From the NCBI RefSeq assembly GCF_014201715.1, contig NZ_JACHFD010000013.1, positions 62,001 to 126,000 of the forward strand: a DNA stretch of 64,000 nt. Direction: 5' to 3'. Below, piece after piece: positions 9,283-63,827 of this stretch. How positions within the stretch are numbered: position 1 is the first letter of the stretch; each line of letters begins with the position of its first letter. Below the pieces are notes generated by a model. It was not told where the DNA came from. It did not search any database and was given only the letters and a program-made list of their open reading frames with translations. This DNA is from Haloferula luteola. Its GTDB lineage: Bacteria > Verrucomicrobiota > Verrucomicrobiia > Verrucomicrobiales > Akkermansiaceae. The position numbers and the translations under genes were made by a program.

Positions 9283-12200
9283 TCACTTCAGCTGTCCGAT
9301 CATCCGTCCCAACTCCAGCACTCGAGGATTTCGGCCGTAGGCCAACTCCACCTCTGCCATCACCTTTCGCAAAGAAGCCCCATCGATCCCCTCAGCAGCC
9401 CCGCCACCTCGCAGCTTCTCCGCCGCCAACCCGGCCAGCCCCGCCAACTGCAGACTGGGCGACGCTTGGTCGAAAGCGACCGCCTGGGGCGCGAAGGGAA
9501 TGCTCCACTTGCGCTCGACCCGAGCTCCTGTGGCAGGATCAAGAAACCTCACCCACACTTCTCCCACATCGCCCGATCCTTCGGGCAATACCTCCACCTG
9601 ATAGAGAGCGATCCCCTCCTCCTCTGCCGCCATTTCCGCCGCGTCCACCGTGTCGTCTCGAAAATCCTCCGGATTCAGACGGTGCTCATCGAAACCGATC
9701 AGCCGATAATGTCCCACCCTCGCCGGATTGAACTTCACCTGGACCTTCACGTCCTCTGCCGCCGGCTTGAATGCGCCCGCCAATTGTTCCGCAAATTCCT
9801 GCCCAGCGTCGGCCGCATCCCGGATCACAGTGTATCGCCCATTTCCATCCCGCGACAGCCGCTCCAGTAGCCGGTCATTCAATCCCTCGGTTCCCACCCC
9901 CACCGCATCAAAAGCGATCCCCCTATTTCTCAATCTCGCCACTCGGACATGCAACGACTCCGGATCTGCATCTCCAAGGTTGGCCGCTCCATCGGTGAAA
10001 AGCACCACACGATTCTGAGCCCCTGGCGCGAACTGCCGGGACGCCAACTCCTCCGCCAACTGCAACGCCTCTTCAAGATTGGTTCCTCCCTCACTCGGCA
10101 AGGTCGACACCGCATCCATCAACTTTCCAGCAGCCGAGCCATCCAGGCGATCCGCCAGCAACCTCGGCTGTCGCGAAAATGCCGCCAATGTCACTGTGTC
10201 TCCGACCTTCAACAAGGAAGACAGGCTGGCCATTGCCTGCCGCAATCCGAACCGCCGGTCCTCTCGCTCCATGGATCCCGAGTTGTCCACCATGATCGTG
10301 AGATTCAAGGGATGGCTCGGCAAACGTCCGGCACTCCCGGTCTTCACTCCAAGTCGCAGCAAATTCCGCTGCGGGAAAAGTGGATGAGCCGCTTGCTCGA
10401 TCACACAACCCACGGGATCTCCCGTACCAGGAGTGGGGTCACCATAGTCAAATGCATTGTAAAACTCTTCAGGTCGAATGCTCGCCGGTTCCGGAACCTC
10501 TCCCCGATCCAAAGCGGCCGCCGCCAACTTGAACGAGGCATCGCTAACGTGCAGGGAAAATGTGGAGAAGGGCTCTTCGGCTGCCTTCGACTCTTTCAGG
10601 CTATCGAGAGTCTGGAGTGCCGCCGCTTTTGACAGCGCATCGATCCGATCGCGAGCTTCCGCTACGACATGACTCTGGGCCTCCGCCATCAAACGAGCCT
10701 GCCGTGCTCGAAGTTCTTCCAGCCGATCCTGAGCCATTTTAAAATCATTGCGGAGCTTCCCAAAGGCCTCCTTTGAGAGCTCATGCCCATCATCAAAGTT
10801 CACGCTCGACTTCAAACTTTCCATCTCACGTCGACTCTCCTCAAGGTGCGCATCGAGTTTCTGGCGAAGATCCGCCACTCCTTGGTCAAGCTGACCCCGG
10901 AGATCTTCAACAAGATCCTTTTGTTCCTGAAGCCGACGCGACTCCTCGCCCCGACCCTCATCGCGCATCGACTGTAGCGCTTGATTGGCCTCTTGATATT
11001 GGGATCGGATCGTCCCCAACTCGCTCTCAGGCTCAAGAATCCCCGCGGCATAGTTCAATCGTTGCTGACCCTCGGAGCGGTCGAGCCGATCCATTTGGCT
11101 TTGCAAGGTCAGTGATTGGGCTTCCAACTCCGCGAATCGTTCACGACTCGCGGCAATCTCAGGCTTCCGTCGCTCGGAATCGGGGTCCGAACGAGCAGGC
11201 ACATAGGGGATTCTCTCCGTGCGGACGAGTTGAGTCATCGCTCGGCGCTTCTCTTCCACGAGGTCCTCTTGTGAAATCAATTCCTCTTGAAGCTTTGACA
11301 TCTCCACATCTGCCTCTGTGGGAACCTCGAGCTCCCAAGCCTTGTCCACTTCGCTCAGCAATTCGGCACGGGTTGCATCGTAGGCCGCTCGATAGAACTG
11401 ACTTTTCGCGGCCTGAACTCGTTCCAGCCCACGTCGGGCCGCCAAATGGTAGCGATCCTCTCCGAGGATGCTTTCGTAGGCTTCCTTGGCATCATCGAAT
11501 AGGCCCAGCTCAAAGGAGGACTGTGCCAGGTCCAGCCGTCGGCGGATATCACCATCCGCAGCCTCGTCAGAGACGATGCCTTGGTTCGTGTCCGTCCATC
11601 CGTACCCTTGCGAGCCACCCATTCCGGCGTCTTTCTGAACCAATCCCACCTCATTGATCGGAGGATCGGAGAGAGTCGGGCCTTTCGAGAATTTATCGAC
11701 CGGCGTCTCATTCTTCAAATCCATCGAAAGTCTTCCCATCGCCGGGAGCTCCGCAAGTTCAGTCCCTTCCTCCGCTTGGGGGGCCGATTCTTTCTTCGCT
11801 TCTCCCTCCAGTGAAGGATCGACGAAATCGTCCGAAAGAGTACCCCACCCCACACTCCCCTCTCGTAGAAGACCCGCGATCGACTCTCGATCAATCGCTC
11901 CATCGCCCGAACGGTTGCCGCTCTCTACGATTCTTGCCATTGGCTCAGCGATTGCCGGAGGGATCCCATCATCGAGCAAGTCCGCTTTCGAGGCAGCTTC
12001 TCGGTTCCGACTCCAAGTCTGGGGAATTAGGTCGCCTACAGGCTGACCCGCACTCCGGGGAACTTCCCGAACGGATTTCAACTCCTTCCAAGCGGCCGTG
12101 GCGGGAACCTCTGCCACTCTCATGGATGCAGGAATCCGGGTACCTCTCCGGACGATCACCGGCAAAGCCACGAGAGTGATCAATAGACAAGCAGCCATGC

Positions 12201-56553: not shown

Positions 56554-58347
56554 TCATTCCTCGGGTTTTCCCCCGGTTCGCAAGGCCAGGACCCACTTCG
56601 CCAGTGCTAGAGTTTCCCCGTCAGAAAGCAGCTCATGCCCCGGCATGTCGGTCCCCGGCAAGCCCCAGTGAATGGCTCGCGCGACCGTTGAAGCATCCAC
56701 CGTCCACACAAATGGACCTTCGACCAAATTTGCCGGCTGCCGCACCCAGCGCTTTGCGAACTCTCCATCACCTCGTCCTTCCGGACCGTGACACACCGCA
56801 CAATGAGCCGCAAACAACCGCGAGCCCTCACCCTCAGGCTCCCCTTCAGGACGCCATTCAAGGGATCGCACCCCCCTCCACTCGCGCGCATCTTCCTGAT
56901 CCGACATCAGCCATGCGATCAAGTCCGCTCCTCGATCGTCCTCGAAAAGATGCGCGTACGACGGCATCGGGCTCCCCACCACCCATTTCTGAGGAGCTAG
57001 AAAGTGTTCCTTCAGCCATGCTGCCGATCGCCGCGCCCCAACATGGGTCAAATCGGGTCCCTGTCTCCGATTTCCAATCGTCACCGGGCGTTCGTGCAGC
57101 ACCTTATCCACGTTCGAGGGCGGACCCCAACCTTCGGGATCCTCCGGTCGGACAAATCGCGAATGGCAGGCAATGCACCCCTCCGCCAAATACACCTGCC
57201 TGCCCCTTTCTTCCGCAGTTTCCCTCGACGCTCCCGTTCCCCCCTGGGAACGCCAACACGCGATCCCCAACACTCCTCCCACCGCCAGCCACTGCCGCCA
57301 CGCACGCCATCCAGTGAGAGCGAGGGCCAACCCAGCTCCCGAGATTGCCACAAATTCCCACGGCACTCGCTGCAGGGCCTGAGCCATTCCAATCCCATTG
57401 GCAGACCCGAACCATCCTGCCACGGCGAAAACCCAGGCAGCCCTCCAGACCACTGTCGAGGAGCGCCCTGCCCAACCCGGCCAGGTCACCAACGCTGCCG
57501 AATAAATCGAAACTCCCACAGGATACATCCAACCCGCCAACCCGCGGGTGGACGGATGATTCACCGCCAACGCCGCGATCGCCAAGACCCCCCATGCCAC
57601 CGCCACCGGCTCCTTCCAAACTCTTCGAGCCAGCCATTCACCAGCCAGTCCACCCGCAAGCAAATGCAGGCCCGCATTGCGCCAGAGCATCGCGCCCCCC
57701 CAAGTACCTTCCTTCAAGTCCCGCTCATGCTGGATGATGAAAAATGCCGCGGAGTCCAACCACACCAACGCCAGGAAAACACCCACCGCCACCACAGCCC
57801 CTCCCACCCCCACTTCACCGTGACTCGGCCCTGAAGGAACCCGTTGCTCCTCCAACCCCGAAGGCACCAGCCAACTGCCCAAAAGCGCAAATCCAGCACC
57901 GATCCAGGCCTGCATCTCAGGACTTGCAGAAAACACCCACGGCACATTGCAGATCGCGTACCCCAGTCCGGTGCCCCACCCAATCCACCGAGCTCCACAC
58001 CAACCAGGCAACAAGGCCGCCAAGGAAACCGTTCCCCCTCCTACTGCCAGGCCCGTCAGGACCGCCACTCCCATCCCACTCACCCCTCCCGATGCCCACG
58101 GCGCGAGAACCGCTGCACAGGCCGCCAGCACCAACGCCAGCCGCAGCCCGACAACCGTCGCCCCTCGTTTGGCCACCCCAAAACCCGCCGCAATTCCCGC
58201 CACCGCCATGGCTCCCAAAGCCCACTTTTCGGCTGCAGGCCCCGCCCCGTGCCCACGCAACAACTCGACGAACGCGAACTGCGCAAAAATCAAAAAGAAA
58301 CCATAGACCGCCGCCACTGCACCGGCCGCTCGTGCTTGAATCTTCAT
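56554..58347 (-). CDS. Transporter-like membrane domain fused to CcoO-like and CcoP-like cytochrome c domains
   Basis: The 597-residue protein has about 12 helices in residues 5-365 with transporter (MFS-like) features, then two c-type haem motifs: CIACH at 391-395 and CAVCH at 516-520. The first haem domain (RGRQVYLAEGCIACHSRFVRP, then RQGPDLTHVG and Met461 in SPMPSYAHL) reads like the CcoO subunit of cbb3 oxidase; the second (GSRLFAAHCAVCHGPEGRGDGEFAKR, Met568 in TDMPGH) like the C-terminal haem domain of CcoP. Such a chain of transporter and two cytochromes is not an arrangement I know. The ATG at 58347 overlaps the preceding gene by four bases. It probably takes electrons from a donor and passes them to the CcoN-like partner, or the reverse. 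Confidence 0.85.
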   Translation of the reverse strand: MKIQARAAGAVAAVYGFFLIFAQFAFVELLRGHGAGPAAEKWALGAMAVAGIAAGFGVAKRGATVVGLRLALVLAACAAVLAPWASGGVSGMGVAVLTGLAVGGGTVSLAALLPGWCGARWIGWGTGLGYAICNVPWVFSASPEMQAWIGAGFALLGSWLVPSGLEEQRVPSGPSHGEVGVGGAVVAVGVFLALVWLDSAAFFIIQHERDLKEGTWGGAMLWRNAGLHLLAGGLAGEWLARRVWKEPVAVAWGVLAIAALAVNHPSTRGLAGWMYPVGVSIYSAALVTWPGWAGRSSTVVWRAAWVFAVAGWFGSANGIGMAQALQRVPWEFVAISGAGLALALTGWRAWRQWLAVGGVLGIACWRSQGGTGASRETAEERGRQVYLAEGCIACHSRFVRPEDPEGWGPPSNVDKVLHERPVTIGNRRQGPDLTHVGARRSAAWLKEHFLAPQKWVVGSPMPSYAHLFEDDRGADLIAWLMSDQEDAREWRGVRSLEWRPEGEPEGEGSRLFAAHCAVCHGPEGRGDGEFAKRWVRQPANLVEGPFVWTVDASTVARAIHWGLPGTDMPGHELLSDGETLALAKWVLALRTGGKPEE

Positions 58348-58724
58348 CGGCACCACCGCTTCCGAATTCCGTAAAATTGCACGATGCCCACAACGCCATC
58401 CGTCGCAGCCACCCCCACCCACGCCGTCTCCAGTCTCCCAGACAAAACATTCACCGTCACAAAGACCGCAACCCAAGCTCGAACCATTGCTGTCCAACCC
58501 CATACCGCCTCGGCCTCTCGTGCCCCCCGCCAAACCCAACCATAACTGAAGCCCACGCTCCCCACAAAAACTCCAATCCAGCGCACCCACACCCAAGACT
58601 CCGGTCCGACCTCACCAATCCCTAACAGACTCAACACCCACCCAGGCCAAAACACTAGCATCAGGCCAGTCAAAGCATCCATGGCACCCACGCCAGCACT
58701 CCATCTCTTGACGATCGTCATCAT
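58344..58724 (-). CDS. Small membrane protein of the cytochrome cluster
   Basis: The 126-residue protein has four helices (about 15-35, 47-65, 78-97 and 101-117) and a basic tail (YGIRKRWCR). It overlaps the genes on both sides by four bases, so it is co-translated in the cluster. Its length and position suggest a small subunit of the complex, comparable in place to CcoQ or CcoS, but no family is recognised. Confidence 0.75.
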   Translation of the reverse strand: MMTIVKRWSAGVGAMDALTGLMLVFWPGWVLSLLGIGEVGPESWVWVRWIGVFVGSVGFSYGWVWRGAREAEAVWGWTAMVRAWVAVFVTVNVLSGRLETAWVGVAATDGVVGIVQFYGIRKRWCR

Positions 58725-59932
58725 GCTTTTGCACCACACTTGGATTCCCCGGACACCCCCGCTGCCAACCACCAATGCAGGGACACCGCCAACATCACCA
58801 CCCCACAGCCAGATCGGATTCCCCACCCTGCAATTCTCCAGCCGGGATTCTCTGCCATCCACGCCACGCCGCCGCCTTCAGCCCATCCCATTCCCATCAA
58901 GACCCCCACCATCACCCATGCCGCCCCCTGCCAAAGCCACGCACTGAAGCGAGAGCCCAAATTCACGCCAAGGAGACGAAGCAGGCAGGCACAAAATGAG
59001 GTAGTGAAACCCGCCATCGCCAGATGCGAATGCGCCACCAATCCCTGAGTGAATTTGAGCCGATCCAACACATCGGGAAAATACGCCGTCACTCCACTCA
59101 ACACCAACAGCGCCCACCATCCGAACATCGCCTGGCGCCACCACTGAGTACCCTCCGGCCACTCATAACGCCTCCACCAGATGGGCAGGCCCACCACCCA
59201 CGGCACCAGCATCACCATCGCGCCCTCTTGCCAGAAATCCCAATGCGTGCCTCCGAGAAACTCGGTGACCCCGAAGACGGCCCAGGAAAGCCCAAAATAC
59301 CCGAGCACGATCCTCCCAGTTCGCCCGTCTGTTGCCAAGCGAAGCCCAACGCTGGCAGGCAATAACATCATCAATCCCACCACAAACAACGTCGACCCCA
59401 ACAAACTCGATCCCGTGGGCCCTCCCGTCGTCGAATCAATCGGAGGATAAAGCTCCGGTGAGGCAGCCACCGCCATCATCACAGGAATCATCGCCAACCC
59501 CACCAAGCCTCCCCATCGCAGCACCGGACGCCATCGGCACTCTCCGCGCCACAAGGCCACCCACAATATCCCCATCGCCACCAGCAACCCCGCCAACGCG
59601 CCTCCTTTCCAGTCGAGGAATATTTTCCCCGAACTCCCACCGTTCAACCAGCTGAGCCCCCCCACAGCCAAGGCGGCAGACCAGGCACCCAGCGCAGCAT
59701 CTGCCCATCGACGGGAAACCCCGTAGACCCCAAACAACCACGCGACCATCGGCAACGCCGTCCAACCATACAGCTGCCCATTCAAATGAACGGGCACCCA
59801 TCTCCCATACGTCCACTCGCCCACCTGCCACTTGGGAAACAAAAGGAGCAGAGATAACCACAACCCGACGGCATTGGCCACCACCAGCCACCCCAGCGCA
59901 TGCCGCGCCGCACTTCGAACTCCCCCATTCAC
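58721..59932 (-). CDS. CcoN-like haem-copper oxidase subunit lacking most copper ligands
   Basis: The 403-residue protein has about 11-12 helices and aligns with CcoN of cbb3 oxidases, though it is shorter (family about 475). The low-spin haem ligand His49 in VPVHLNGQLYGW is present, and so is the pair His301/His303 (VAHSHLAMAGF), which bind the second haem and the b haem. The copper ligands are altered: the helix-6 His of the GHNAV motif is replaced around Ser175 (GPTGSSLLGS), and of the HH pair in helix 7 only one His may remain (His230 in GGTHWDFW). A functional CuB site is therefore unlikely. The start is GTG at 59932, overlapping the ATPase stop by four bases. Confidence 0.82.
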   Translation of the reverse strand: MNGGVRSAARHALGWLVVANAVGLWLSLLLLFPKWQVGEWTYGRWVPVHLNGQLYGWTALPMVAWLFGVYGVSRRWADAALGAWSAALAVGGLSWLNGGSSGKIFLDWKGGALAGLLVAMGILWVALWRGECRWRPVLRWGGLVGLAMIPVMMAVAASPELYPPIDSTTGGPTGSSLLGSTLFVVGLMMLLPASVGLRLATDGRTGRIVLGYFGLSWAVFGVTEFLGGTHWDFWQEGAMVMLVPWVVGLPIWWRRYEWPEGTQWWRQAMFGWWALLVLSGVTAYFPDVLDRLKFTQGLVAHSHLAMAGFTTSFCACLLRLLGVNLGSRFSAWLWQGAAWVMVGVLMGMGWAEGGGVAWMAENPGWRIAGWGIRSGCGVVMLAVSLHWWLAAGVSGESKCGAKA

Positions 59933-60591
59933 TCCTCCACCCTCCCGTCCCGCATCCGCACCACCCGGGAACAGCGGCTCGCCAAATCCACATCGTGCGT
60001 CGCCATCACCAACGTGAGCCCACGCTCCGCCACCAATTTCATCAATAGCTCGAACACCGCCTCTCGATTGCGCTCGTCCAAGGCACCTGTCGGCTCATCC
60101 GCTAACAGAACTCGAGGGCGATTCATCAGCGCCCGGCACAAGGCACCACGCTGACGCTCCCCACCTGAAAGCTCTCGCACCCTCCGGTCCAGACGCTGTA
60201 AAAGCCCGGTTTCCTCTGCCAACTCACGAACACGATCACGCGCGGCGGATGCGGACATCCCCACCGCCACGGCTGGCACCAGGAGATTTTCCTCCAGGGT
60301 CAATCCAGGCATCAGGTGATGCAACTGAAACACAAATCCCACCGTATGGCGCAAGAGCTCCCGGCGCGACACCTCGTCGAACACGCCCCGGCCCGCCACC
60401 GTCACCCGGCCCTCCTGCGGCAGCTCCAGTCCGGCAATCACATTGAGCAAGGTCGACTTCCCACACCCAGAACTCCCAACCAAAGCCAAGGTCTCTCCCG
60501 CCTCGACGAGCAAATCGACACCCTTGAGCACCTCAATACGACCTTCGTCGTAGCTTCGCCACACATCATTCACTTGGATGATCGTTTCCAT
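59929..60591 (-). CDS. ABC transporter ATPase, LolD/MacB type
   Basis: The 220-residue protein has the Walker A GSSGCGKSTLLNVIAG, signature LSGGERQRGALCRALMNRPRVL, Walker B LLADEPTGAL and the H-loop ATHD, and clearly pairs with the next permease. The overlap with the permease is one base (TGATG). Permease-linked ATPases of this type drive release of lipoproteins or export of small molecules. Confidence 0.93.
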   Translation of the reverse strand: METIIQVNDVWRSYDEGRIEVLKGVDLLVEAGETLALVGSSGCGKSTLLNVIAGLELPQEGRVTVAGRGVFDEVSRRELLRHTVGFVFQLHHLMPGLTLEENLLVPAVAVGMSASAARDRVRELAEETGLLQRLDRRVRELSGGERQRGALCRALMNRPRVLLADEPTGALDERNREAVFELLMKLVAERGLTLVMATHDVDLASRCSRVVRMRDGRVEE

Positions 60592-61703
60592 CACTCAAAT
60601 CTCAAAGCCTCGGCCGGTTTCAACTTCGCAGCATGAATGGCGGGATAAAGAGCTCCACCCACCCCCGTCAACATCGCCAATACCACCGCCCCCAGAACCT
60701 CCCGCATGCCCACTTGGGGTTCAATGTAACCTTGGAGCGCCGGGAGAACCTTCAGCAAACGCAGACCGCCTATCGAAAGCAACCATCCGGCCAACACCCC
60801 GATGCTCGAAAGTGCAAGCGACTCGCCCAAAATCATTCGTGCCAATTGCCCCCGCGAAAAACCACACACCCTCAAAACCGCGAGCTCTCGAATGCGGCTG
60901 AAGACGGAAAGAATCATCGTATTCGTCACACTCAAACCTCCCAACAAAAAGGCACATCCGCCCACCACCCAGGCCGTGGTTTTCAAAATCCTGAACTGGG
61001 AATAGCTTCGACTGAACTCCTCGTTTTCCAGGGCGGTCAAACGGTCGTGGTGGGCATCGATCCATGCCTTCACCTCTCTGGGCTCATGCCCCTCGGCGAG
61101 AGCCACCGTGACCACGGAGGACCCCCCCTCCTTGTGAAAGGCCCGCTGGCATTCCTTGAGGGGCATGAAGACCCCCCCGTTTTCGAAACCATTTTCCATT
61201 CTCACCACGCCCGCCACTGGATAGCGATCCTGCCCAAGCTCCACTTCATCGCCTGCTGTTGCCTTGAGGAAATCGGCCGCTCGTTCTCCCAGTACCACAC
61301 CGCGCCCGTCGTCTAAAAATCCCTCCAGCCCTCCGCTCAGCCACTCCGCCTTCTCCAGCCTGCCATCACTCGCTCGAATCCCAAAGCAAGTCACCACAGG
61401 GCGATCCGGAGCTGCGATGATCGTGAACAAAACAGGCTGCGCCTCCTTCACAAACGACTGCTCTTCCAGTTCTTCGACCAAGGTTTCCGGCACATTGCTG
61501 AAGAACAAATCCGAAACATTGCGCTCAAACACCACCATCTCCGCATCACTGCGGAGGATCTTCTCAAACATCTTCACCGCACCGCCGAGCAACCCCACCA
61601 CGCTCAGCAAAGTCGCCACCCCCAATGCAATCCCTGTGGCTCCAATCGCGGTGCGCACGCGGTGCCGACGCAAATTCGTCAAAATCAATTTCCAAAGGCT
61701 CAT
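60591..61703 (-). CDS. ABC transporter permease, FtsX/MacB family
   Basis: The 370-residue protein starts MSLWKLILTNLRRHRVRTA with the first helix at 17-38, an outside MacB-like domain of about 210 residues and three C-terminal helices (VVGGCAFLLGGLSV, ALSSIGVLAGWLLS, VLGAVVLAMLTGVGGAL). A conserved SRIRELAVLRVCGFSRGQL loop matches the FtsX family. I use the ATG at 61703 rather than the upstream ORF. The permease and ATPase are typical of the LolCDE/MacB type; their place in this cluster suggests a role in handling or assembling the haem proteins, which is inference. Confidence 0.92.
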   Translation of the reverse strand: MSLWKLILTNLRRHRVRTAIGATGIALGVATLLSVVGLLGGAVKMFEKILRSDAEMVVFERNVSDLFFSNVPETLVEELEEQSFVKEAQPVLFTIIAAPDRPVVTCFGIRASDGRLEKAEWLSGGLEGFLDDGRGVVLGERAADFLKATAGDEVELGQDRYPVAGVVRMENGFENGGVFMPLKECQRAFHKEGGSSVVTVALAEGHEPREVKAWIDAHHDRLTALENEEFSRSYSQFRILKTTAWVVGGCAFLLGGLSVTNTMILSVFSRIRELAVLRVCGFSRGQLARMILGESLALSSIGVLAGWLLSIGGLRLLKVLPALQGYIEPQVGMREVLGAVVLAMLTGVGGALYPAIHAAKLKPAEALRFE

Positions 61704-61770
61704 CGTCTCTTGGTTTCCACTTCTCCTTTCGTCGGGATCCTCGATCCCCTCCCTCCTTTTCAACAAACTC

Positions 61771-62700
61771 TCACCCGGCTGCGGTATCCCCCTCCGATAG
61801 CAACGCGGCGACCCCTTCCGGAATTTCGATGCGAAGAGGAACCAACATTCCCCAGCGCTCCGCAGGCCCGGGAAGCGCAGCTTGCACCCGGTCACCCACC
61901 ACCACCAAACGCTCCAATCGCACCACCGCCGCGGCAAATCCTTCCGCCATCACCAGATTCGGGCGTCCCAGCGCCTCGTCCCGGCCTGCTGTTTTCCCAG
62001 CACCACCCACCACGTCCTTCACATCGTCGGCGGCCTGATAGGCCAGTCCTCGCAACAATGCGAGCCGATCCAGCAACTGCAGCTCTCGCTCGCTCGCCCT
62101 GCCAATCATCGCAGGCAACACCAACGTCAACCTCAAGAGATCCCCCGTCTTTCGAGCCGCGACTTCACTGACGTCCGCCGCCGATTGCCCACCCTGCCAA
62201 TCCCCGAGGTCATGCGACTGGCCCCCAATCATCCCGACTGTACCCAAACACCGATCCACCCACTCGCCCGCTCGTTCACGACGCGCCAATGACGCCCCAT
62301 TCATGCCCTGCCAAAGCAAAAGATAACCCCGATTGATCATCGCCAAGGCCGCCAACATGGCCGTGCCTTCACCATGCAACACATGAAGCGCCGGCATGCT
62401 CCGGCGGGTGACTGCATCATCCATCGCCGGCAGATCATCGAACACCAACGAAGCCGTGTGAAGATACTCAATCCCACACGCCATCGCCCGCGCCTGAGCC
62501 TCGGGCACCCCCATCTCGATCCCCACCAAATAGGCCGCCACGGCCCGGGTCAACGAGCCCGGTCGTGCCAATAAATCACCCAGCGCTGCCGCCAACCGAC
62601 GCTCAACTCCCTCCGGCCGACCCATCCCCTGCCGAAAACTTTCCGCCATCAGTGCCTTCGCACAGCTGGCCCGTTTGGCCCACCAAAAATCAGGATTCAT
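61771..62700 (-). CDS. Polyprenyl (farnesyl/geranylgeranyl-type) diphosphate synthase
   Basis: The 309-residue protein has the first Asp-rich motif DDLPAMDDAVTRR (Asp88, Asp89, Asp94) and the second DDVKD, both needed to bind diphosphate. It condenses isopentenyl diphosphate with allylic primers. The chain length of the product cannot be told. It lies 11 bases after the YceI gene and 67 bases before the permease gene, so it is probably in the same transcript. Its presence with a YceI lipid-binding protein suggests a shared isoprenoid or quinone theme. Confidence 0.9.
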   Translation of the reverse strand: MNPDFWWAKRASCAKALMAESFRQGMGRPEGVERRLAAALGDLLARPGSLTRAVAAYLVGIEMGVPEAQARAMACGIEYLHTASLVFDDLPAMDDAVTRRSMPALHVLHGEGTAMLAALAMINRGYLLLWQGMNGASLARRERAGEWVDRCLGTVGMIGGQSHDLGDWQGGQSAADVSEVAARKTGDLLRLTLVLPAMIGRASERELQLLDRLALLRGLAYQAADDVKDVVGGAGKTAGRDEALGRPNLVMAEGFAAAVVRLERLVVVGDRVQAALPGPAERWGMLVPLRIEIPEGVAALLSEGDTAAG

Positions 62701-62711
62701 GGCTTCGTCAC

Positions 62712-63251
62712 TTAGAGTTTACCGACCAAATGAAAGCGCACCTTCAATTCAGGCTTCACGGTCATGATCGCCATCGAGCGGACAATCGGCAGGGAAAAAT
62801 CCGTGTAGTCCAGCTGCACTGCCCCATCAATCGTCACCCACTCCCCGTCCTTTTCCACCGTGTAAGGAAAAGCAATCGCCTTGCTCACACCGTGAATCGT
62901 CAAGTTCCCCATGGCGAAATGCTTGCCATCCTTCTCCCATGTCTTTGTGAACCTGAATGAACCCGCCGGCTTCGCCGATCCCAGCCATTTGAGCATCTCC
63001 TGATCCCGATCCGCCTCGCCCGTCTTCAAGTCGTCGAAGGTCCACTTCAAAACAAAGGATTGAGGCAACAAAGTCGACACATCTCCGTCCACCTTTGCCT
63101 CATAGTCCTCAAGCGTCCCGGTGAAAGCGTGCCCCGTCGCCTTCGCGTCAACCTGGATACGGCTGCGCTTCGGGTCGATCTTCAAAGGCGCGGCTTGCAC
63201 CGCTCCTGCCAGCAGCAGCCCGCTGAGCGCGAGGCCGATGGATTTCCGCAT
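62712..63251 (-). CDS. YceI-family periplasmic lipid-binding-like protein
   Basis: The 179-residue protein has a signal peptide (MRKSIGLALSGLLLAGAVQA) and the lipocalin-like YceI fold: DPKRSRIQVDAKATGHAFTG near the start, then GNLTIHGVSKAIAFPYTV and TDFSLPIVRSMAIM. YceI homologues such as TT1927b bind polyprenyl-type quinone precursors. I use the ATG at 63251, since an upstream in-frame ATG at 63314 would hide the signal peptide. It is the first gene of the cluster on the minus strand and divergent from the gene at 63357. Confidence 0.87.
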   Translation of the reverse strand: MRKSIGLALSGLLLAGAVQAAPLKIDPKRSRIQVDAKATGHAFTGTLEDYEAKVDGDVSTLLPQSFVLKWTFDDLKTGEADRDQEMLKWLGSAKPAGSFRFTKTWEKDGKHFAMGNLTIHGVSKAIAFPYTVEKDGEWVTIDGAVQLDYTDFSLPIVRSMAIMTVKPELKVRFHLVGKL

Positions 63252-63356: not shown

Positions 63357-63827
63357 ATGAAAATCCGTTCGCTTCTGTTTCTGCTGCTGTCCCTCTTGGT
63401 CCTTCCCTGCCTCGCCGATCCTTACAAGGCGGGAGAAACCATCGAGGTCTTTTCGGCAAAAGATCAGCATCAAAAAGCCTACACGCTTGAGCCCAAAAAC
63501 ACACGCTATCTCCTCGTCAGCCACGACATGGAAACCGGAAAGGCCGCCAACAAGGTTCTCGACGGGCTCGGCGCCGATTACCTGCCCGGCAAGAAGGCGA
63601 TCTACATGGCCAACATCCACGGCATGCCCGGCATCGGCCGGATGTTCGCTCTCCCGAAAATGCGGAAGTACGCCCACCGCATCATCCTCGGAGACGATGC
63701 CGAATTGATCGCCCACTTCCCCCAGCAAGCTGGCAAAGTCACCGTGCTCAAGCTCTCCGGGAAAAAGATCGTTTCGATCCAATATTGGGATCCAGCCAAG
63801 GAAGCCCCAGGAACGTATCTCCCCTAA
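63357..63827 (+). CDS. Secreted hypothetical protein, perhaps thioredoxin-like
   Basis: The 156-residue protein has a signal peptide (LLFLLLSLLVLPCLA). The rest, with RYLLVSHDMETGKAANKVLDGL, RIILGDDAELIAHFPQQAGKVTVLKL and a C-terminal YLP, has spacing like YtfJ-type or thioredoxin-like proteins, but no CxxC motif is present. Function unknown. It is divergent from the YceI gene. Confidence 0.75.
   Translation: MKIRSLLFLLLSLLVLPCLADPYKAGETIEVFSAKDQHQKAYTLEPKNTRYLLVSHDMETGKAANKVLDGLGADYLPGKKAIYMANIHGMPGIGRMFALPKMRKYAHRIILGDDAELIAHFPQQAGKVTVLKLSGKKIVSIQYWDPAKEAPGTYLP

Follow-up and report, generated by a model that had tools for sequence, protein, structure and literature searches.

Why should proteins resembling the subunits of a cbb3-type oxidase be encoded together with a polyprenyl diphosphate synthase, a lipid-type exporter and a YceI family protein? 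The question is raised by seven genes at 56554–63251, on the minus strand of a 64,000-nucleotide stretch of Haloferula luteola DNA (contig NZ_JACHFD010000013.1, positions 62,001 to 126,000; here called the window), which comes from contig C13 of a 4.9 Mb genome in 84 contigs. With moderate confidence we propose that this cluster exports an isoprenoid quinone, likely of the menaquinone type, and cycles it between its redox states on the periplasmic side; heme content, substrate, export, the direction of electron flow and physiological role are what we infer in this proposal.

The seven genes and their conservation

When the open reading frames (ORFs) are laid out and the overlaps measured, the seven minus-strand genes, their order and the overlaps of 1–4 bases are as the original prediction described them. 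First comes a secreted protein of the YceI family, a putative periplasmic isoprenoid carrier (62712–63251; PF04264, 59.5 bits, above the cut-off), followed after 11 bases by the polyprenyl diphosphate synthase (PPS; 61771–62700; PF00348, 96.2 bits) and, after a gap of 67 bases, by an ABC permease resembling LolC/E and MacB (60591–61703; Pfam MacB_PCD and FtsX). The LolD-like ABC ATPase (59929–60591; PF00005, ABC_tran, 129.5 bits) overlaps the permease by 1 base, or by 4 if a GTG start is used. Overlaps of 4 bases then link the ATPase to N, a membrane protein with a predicted CcoN/NorB fold that lacks the copper-B ligand of transmembrane helix (TM) 6 (58721–59932); N to S126, a membrane protein of 126 residues without a Pfam entry (58344–58724); and S126 to FUS, in which a membrane domain predicted to have the fold of the major facilitator superfamily (MFS) precedes CcoO-like and CcoP-like c-type cytochrome domains (56554–58347).

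The proposal that these genes form a single system depends on their order recurring in related genomes. It clearly does: the core order is found in Verrucomicrobiota, in Acidobacteriota and in a few other records. Neighbourhoods were counted at 114 loci with N, 103 of them distinct (at 97% identity over ~140 residues) and 71 with enough flank (at least 4.5 kb upstream and 3 kb downstream of N), in a collection biased to Verrucomicrobiota and to loci fitting two peptide patterns. FUS is present at 70 of the 71 full-flank loci, PPS and S126 at 66 each, YceI at 65, the permease at 63 (quoted in place of the ATPase, whose count took any similar ABC ATPase within 8 kb) and an RND protein at 5. Four-base overlaps recur at 48 of 61 measurable N/S126 junctions, 31 of 63 between S126 and FUS and 29 of 59 between ATPase and N, counts that are favoured by our picking, at each junction, the start nearest to an overlap. 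Those Verrucomicrobiota loci that have YceI carry it upstream of the synthase; in Acidobacteria some copies lie downstream of FUS (in Terriglobus roseus with a 4-base overlap) and others are divergent upstream. The smallest form found consists of YceI, PPS, N and cytochromes (L152 and L155), and L201 has PPS, N, S126, FUS and a metallo-beta-lactamase-fold (MBL) hydrolase, with neither exporter on its stretch.

The system is patchy but wide across bacteria. N occurs in 9 of 18 genomes of the genus (the window's own included), in 11 of 57 genomes searched as relatives, and, at more than 400 bits, in 16 of 288 phylum genomes and 13 of 150 Terriglobus-family genomes; a further 30 of the 46 phylum genomes with some match have only weak ones (under ~40 bits), which are probably genuine CcoN proteins and are excluded from the counts. 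At E 1e-20 we found matches in 8 of 396 genomes of the phylum to which the L084 genome (a Thermoanaerobaculia record) belongs, and in 3 of 45 of the phylum of the L073 genome (titled Bdellovibrionales). These searches scored the best few candidates per genome (6 in the phylum, 12 in the Terriglobus family, 4 in the L084 phylum), so misses are possible. A search of GTDB genomes by peptide pattern turned up 78 loci. Their records mostly carry titles from Verrucomicrobia and Acidobacteria (Terriglobus roseus, Edaphobacter modestus and Acidipila rosea among them), with one locus each titled Rhodanobacteraceae and Bdellovibrionales and two titled merely ‘bacterium’; most of these records are metagenome bins, and the odd titles may be binning errors.

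Patchy presence, with a strong match in those 16 of 288 phylum genomes, and the loss of single members from some loci are what speaks for unrelated genes that lie together by chance or merely share their regulation. We consider this extremely improbable because the core recurs across loci, with its overlaps, in both Verrucomicrobiota and Acidobacteriota, and YceI is retained though its position in the cluster shifts. The claim of one unit joining redox proteins to isoprenoid lipid handling holds in so far as the unit is conserved and probably translationally coupled; its reading as a respiratory oxidase of the cbb3 type is not supported, because nearly every member is without the TM6 copper-B ligand.

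Fold, metal ligands and partners of N

Taken alone, window N has no Pfam match and no meaningful PDB sequence match in single-sequence searches; its kinship with heme-copper oxidases follows from the profiles of its relatives and from its fold. In single scans 24 of 46 family members match PF00115 at E up to 1 (best 8e-10), window N not being among them, and a profile of the 46 finds CcoN 9g6b_A with an E-value of 0.0015. The AlphaFold2 model of window N (pLDDT 92.9) matches CcoN 8smr_E with Z 28.2 (rmsd 4.3, 381 aligned residues) and NorB of cNOR (4xyd_A) with Z 27.4, above other heme-copper oxidases, and on this predicted model N is a protein with the 12-TM subunit I fold of the heme-copper oxidase superfamily. 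The ccoN model TIGR00780 had no match at the cluster position in 8 genomes searched (E 0.001). An hhalign comparison of the N family with four CcoN sequences aligned them end to end at E 0.015 and probability 2.9, and is not relied on here.

In cbb3 oxidases the low-spin heme is held by the TM2 histidine and the second histidine of TM10, and copper B by the TM6 histidine and a His-His pair in TM7; these are the roles given to the CcoN histidines in the oxidase literature. Our ligand table holds 104 non-identical family sequences, counting window N, and 102 of these carry letters at the sites (here and in the motif tables a row was left out only where it was identical to another over a stretch). 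H49 (TM2) and H301 (TM10) are kept in all 102, and H303, the second histidine of the TM10 HxH motif, in 79, among them window N. By contrast, position 175, which aligns to the TM6 copper-B histidine of 9g6b_A, is histidine in 1 of 102 and otherwise mostly Ala or Ser (Ser in window N). Near the end of TM7, 97 sequences retain H230 and position 231 is histidine in 49, with an uncertain register against the CcoN His-His pair. We considered H230 as a copper ligand and dropped it, the profile alignment placing H230/231 several residues past the TM7 pair. The sole sequence with histidine at position 175 is that of L081, which may be a transitional form. At L090, in a metagenome record, N is split across two reading frames (9977–11229), by assembly error or a real frame break.

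In FUS the CcoO-like and CcoP-like domains show as Pfam matches to FixO at residues 379–475 (85.5 bits, above the Pfam cut-off; the ccoO model, at 79.5 bits, does not reach its equivalog cut-off of 200.65) and to Cytochrom_C at 507–589 (54.8 bits). For N, the CcoN-like label stands on relatives and fold and is not matched by a Pfam hit of the window protein itself. The N-terminal part of FUS, earlier called simply a transporter, can be specified as an MFS fold: in the predicted model (pLDDT 87.7, pTM 0.68) residues 1–349 match MelB 9old with Z 29.9 (rmsd 3.2, 332 aligned), and the cytochrome domains lie C-terminal to them. The MFS and cytochrome parts occupy separate reading frames in L077, L081 and L091, whereas for L152 and L155 the search found the cytochrome part alone. 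Of 93 family rows, 89 and 85 retain the two CxxCH motifs, the remaining 4 and 8 being gapped there. In S126, G13, D16, G20, P27, G51, F53, G58 and R82 are identical in 100 of 100 rows (duplicates kept, none having been dropped from this table).

Could N nevertheless belong to an oxidase of the cbb3 type, or one reducing NO, that works with unusual metal ligands, which is how such genes are treated in the literature on Acidobacteria? Its fold, the CcoO-like and CcoP-like domains, the L081 histidine and the retention of H230 in 97 of 102 sequences are in keeping with that. The TM6 copper ligand is, however, missing in 101 of 102 sequences, which argues against O2 or NO reduction, and the second TM10 histidine is missing in 23; moreover the genomes tested contain other heme-copper oxidases. 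We therefore think a working oxidase very unlikely, and judging by its sequence N is probably neither an oxidase nor decaying. A decaying oxidase was rejected since the partner genes retain their motifs, in the synthase, the ATPase and the cytochrome domains alike. In the window genome genuine heme-copper oxidases are encoded elsewhere, including a CcoN-CcoO fusion on contig C8 (TIGR00780, 617.9 bits, above the cut-off), and because a real cbb3 locus exists there, the missing CcoG, CcoH, CcoI and CcoS genes at the cluster, which the original prediction had remarked on, say little.

The published record for Acidobacteria deserves scrutiny in this light. For T. roseus KBS 63 (NC_018014) two type A oxidases, one type C (cbb3) and no bd oxidase are listed (PMC5900883). 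In our searches of this genome PF00115 finds exactly two proteins, TIGR00780 none and FixO exactly one, the latter within the cluster FUS, and the N profile finds a single protein, at 5038761–5039966 in the cluster locus L075 (NC_018014 5028776–5049966). Because two proteins match PF00115, none matches TIGR00780 and the single FixO lies in FUS, exclusion leaves this cluster as what the published cbb3 oxidase appears to be. G105, which we take to be the genome of A. capsulatum, has the cluster (L174) and only one PF00115 protein. This agrees with the one A-type oxidase reported for A. capsulatum, and its published cbb3 is probably likewise this cluster; that cbb3 is reported to be weakly transcribed at 10 µM O2 and downregulated below it. 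If this is the same gene, its expression drops as O2 falls, a further point against an oxidase. The T. roseus ccoN transcript, reported as low throughout, neither supports nor contradicts a stress role. Not every acidobacterium fits this reading: the Acidipila genome (G059) carries, besides the cluster, a fused CcoN-like protein (138.6 bits, below the cut-off). A match to heme-copper oxidase subunit I in the record of Edaphobacter modestus (G058, C3:139409–140766) is broken in two, and one of the pieces contains a stop.

A high-affinity cbb3 oxidase, and with it a microaerobic way of life, has been ascribed to T. roseus KBS 63 and probably to A. capsulatum. Should our reading be true, that record would need correcting and genome surveys that count CcoN-like genes would over-count microaerobes; an ‘oxidase’ that is not seen to be used at low O2 is what would be expected of a protein that is not an oxidase. 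A heme-copper oxidase subunit would have been converted into a non-oxidase redox protein, and quinones would not be confined to the inner membrane in these bacteria.

Exporters, quinone genes and the cargo

The lipid-handling half of the cluster is recognisable at family level. Window YceI has an N-terminus that by eye resembles a signal peptide, and weak PDB sequence relatives in E. coli YceI (1y0g, E 2e-4) and PA0423 (7bwl, E 5e-4); for the T. roseus cluster YceI a PDB sequence relative, with a weak E-value, is a ‘polyisoprenoid-binding protein’. The NCBIfam models nearest to the synthase are FPP/GGPP synthases, below cut-off, and both of its Asp-rich motifs are kept in 89 of 91 family rows. 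LolF, MacB and LolCE are PDB relatives of the permease, which scores 71.1 bits against the NCBIfam lolCE model (cut-off 362.45 not reached); the best NCBIfam model for the ATPase is LolD at 211.2 bits (cut-off 307.75 not reached), and the LSGGE motif is present in 83 of 90 family rows.

The exporter is exchanged between lineages. Permease and RND protein are never found together among the 71 loci: 63 have the permease only, 5 the RND protein only (L091, L158, L202, L203, L204), 3 neither (L019, L152, L155) and none both. At the shorter-flank loci L073, L084 and L092 the RND protein is present and the synthase adjoins N with no permease between; L078 also has it, the contig starting at N so that the permease's place lies outside. 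The best matches of the RND protein are HpnN (3e-86 and 1e-97; 290.1 and 327.9 bits, curated cut-off 751.85 not reached) and BstA at 218.7 and 239 bits (cut-off 1400 not reached), and the tetratricopeptide repeat (TPR) protein of L084 and L092 matches the sterol-transport protein BstC (1e-6 and 2e-7), below curated cut-offs. Because RND replaces the ABC pair while the core of synthase, N, S126 and FUS stays, exporter and redox complex look like separable modules, and the single stable complex of ABC pair and cytochromes envisaged in the original prediction is conjectural. A common protein (L158:11790–12428 and L202:16697–17293, E 2e-23), with no Pfam match in L158, stands beside the RND-type clusters of these two loci.

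The conserved unit exceeds the seven genes. It also takes in a small secreted protein on the plus strand, divergent from the cluster (63357–63827; thioredoxin-like by eye only, with no match in Pfam or NCBIfam), and, just past the window end, an MBL hydrolase (Lactamase_B_2) on the minus strand (L146:14570–15598) and MenD. Homologues of the small protein occur in 25 record stretches, a number that counts the window and L092, the record of the query itself; it is found at 23 and MBL at 32 of the 71 loci, and neither was counted as core. Among the flanking ORF clusters inspected by eye MBL, the thioredoxin-like protein and YceI were recognised, the smaller clusters look unrelated, and two large ones have the look of reading frames antisense to genes in GC-rich DNA.

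Which isoprenoid might be handled is suggested by the genes beside distant members. L084 reads, in one direction, PPS-N-S126-FUS-MBL-RND-UbiA-TPR-UbiE. Its UbiA passes the TIGR01475 cut-off and comes near the MqnP models without reaching theirs; with a second such UbiA on contig C186 of that genome, the copy in the cluster, which shares contig C68 with N, is extra. L092 has the thioredoxin-like protein, TPR, a UbiE-like methyltransferase, RND, PPS and the start of N; in genome G868 the two halves of N join up at this point, and L200 is accordingly taken to continue L092, carrying the remainder of N along with S126, FUS, MBL and a 130-residue UbiA fragment (124.6 bits, below the cut-off). UbiE-like methyltransferases are thus near the cluster at L084 and L092 and, together with RND, at L078 and L204. 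An isochorismate synthase stands beside YceI and PPS in L203 (268.9 bits) and L076 (311.5 bits; cut-off 224.75), and in G049 a weaker relative (110.7 bits, below cut-off) overlaps FUS by 4 bases. MenD lies upstream beyond the MBL gene in the window genome (254 bits) and in G002 of the same genus (256.1 bits; cut-off 244.2). Singly these cases are weak and most loci have none; jointly they favour a quinone.

Several observations weigh against our proposal. Among the 71 full-flank loci UbiA occurs at 1 (L061, on the opposite strand and 6.3 kb off), UbiE-like genes at 2 (one weak and on the opposite strand) and MenF-like genes at 2, the remaining quinone-gene cases having shorter flanks and lying outside the 71, and MenD is found in two records of one genus. 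The window MenD, separated from YceI by the MBL gene, could be a chance neighbour, and the UbiE-like proteins, which are below family cut-offs, could be other methyltransferases. A synthase of the FPP/GGPP-like kind suggests a short tail. Heme binding in N may differ between lineages because the second TM10 histidine (H303) is missing in 23 of 102 sequences. Lastly, the presence of the cluster is patchy, and of the 71 loci 5 are without a nearby synthase, 6 without YceI, 5 without S126 and 3 without an exporter.

Some of this would suit a different exported isoprenoid, a carotenoid-, hopanoid- or polyprenol-like lipid oxidised or desaturated by the cytochrome complex. The synthase, YceI and lipid-type exporters are near-constant partners, HpnN, BstA and BstC relatives are tied to hopanoid and sterol transport, and quinone genes are near only a minority of loci. 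Yet no desaturase, phytoene/squalene synthase or cyclase was recognised by eye among the 25 largest flanking clusters, and the biosynthetic genes named by models near distant members are quinone genes; we regard such a cargo as unlikely, if a serious contender. The two c-type heme domains, which retain their CxxCH and Met motifs, and the quinone genes close to some members would suit a quinol:cytochrome c or outward electron-transfer complex, passing electrons from quinol through N and the c-type cytochromes to a periplasmic or extracellular acceptor. Such a complex has by itself no need of a dedicated synthase, an exporter or YceI, and no multiheme cytochrome or porin was noticed, a weak point as few neighbours were annotated; we think it decidedly unlikely.

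If the cargo is a quinone, the dedicated polyprenyl synthase would supply its lipid tail, the LolCDE/MacB-like ABC pair, or the HpnN/BstA-like RND protein in other lineages, would extract the lipid from the inner membrane, and YceI would carry it across the periplasm in the role that LolA has for lipoproteins. N, S126 and FUS would shuttle electrons between c-type cytochromes and the quinone. The likeliest use would be a quinol pool outside the membrane that is held reduced against lipid peroxidation, as has been proposed for LcoA-BcnA. It is possible, and we put it forward tentatively, that all this adds up to a second quinone pool outside the inner membrane in several phyla, with its own biosynthesis, exporter and periplasmic carrier and with a dedicated cytochrome complex, derived from a cbb3/NO-reductase ancestor, that has lost copper B and has been counted as a high-affinity oxidase in Acidobacteria.

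Comparison with known systems

We found no description of this redox unit in the open-access literature searched; the closest known systems resemble it in part. From cbb3 oxidase (CcoN, CcoO, CcoP) and NorB of cNOR, which it resembles in the N fold and the CcoO-like and CcoP-like domains, the cluster differs in that the N family is without the TM6 copper-B ligand in 101 of 102 sequences, that the window CcoO and CcoP parts are fused behind an MFS-fold domain, and in its other operon partners. With LolCDE-LolA and MacB it shares a MacB_PCD/FtsX permease, a LolD-like ATPase and a lipid-binding periplasmic protein encoded alongside; unlike LolCDE it has one permease gene, YceI as putative carrier and redox proteins alongside, and it scores below the LolC/E and LolD cut-offs. 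BstA, which is HpnN-like, BstB and BstC are described as putative transporters of sterols in the direction of the outer membrane (PMC10942540). Their likeness to the cluster is confined to an RND protein of this kind, with a BstC-like TPR protein in L084 and L092, where the ABC pair is missing; HpnN/BstABC-like proteins are absent from the window, score below curated cut-offs, and would differ in substrate.

A parallel in function is LcoA-BcnA, a cytochrome b561 with a YceI lipocalin that protects Gram-negative bacteria from peroxyl radicals. According to the work on this pair, structures of YceI lipocalins contain octaprenyl compounds or ubiquinone-8, many bacteria have bcnA next to a gene for cytochrome b561, lipid peroxidation is raised in mutants, and the authors suggest that the cytochrome re-reduces the YceI-bound quinone (PMC9113575). 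Here, too, a secreted YceI family protein is encoded with a membrane redox partner, a b-type cytochrome in the case of LcoA-BcnA (PMC9113575). In the cluster, however, that partner has the predicted CcoN/NorB fold and is not a b561, no b561 family being among the Pfam matches of the seven cluster proteins, and the cluster has in addition c-type cytochromes, an MFS domain, an exporter and a polyprenyl synthase, as well as quinone genes in some members. In the explanation we favour, the cluster would work like LcoA-BcnA with redox parts that are not homologous.

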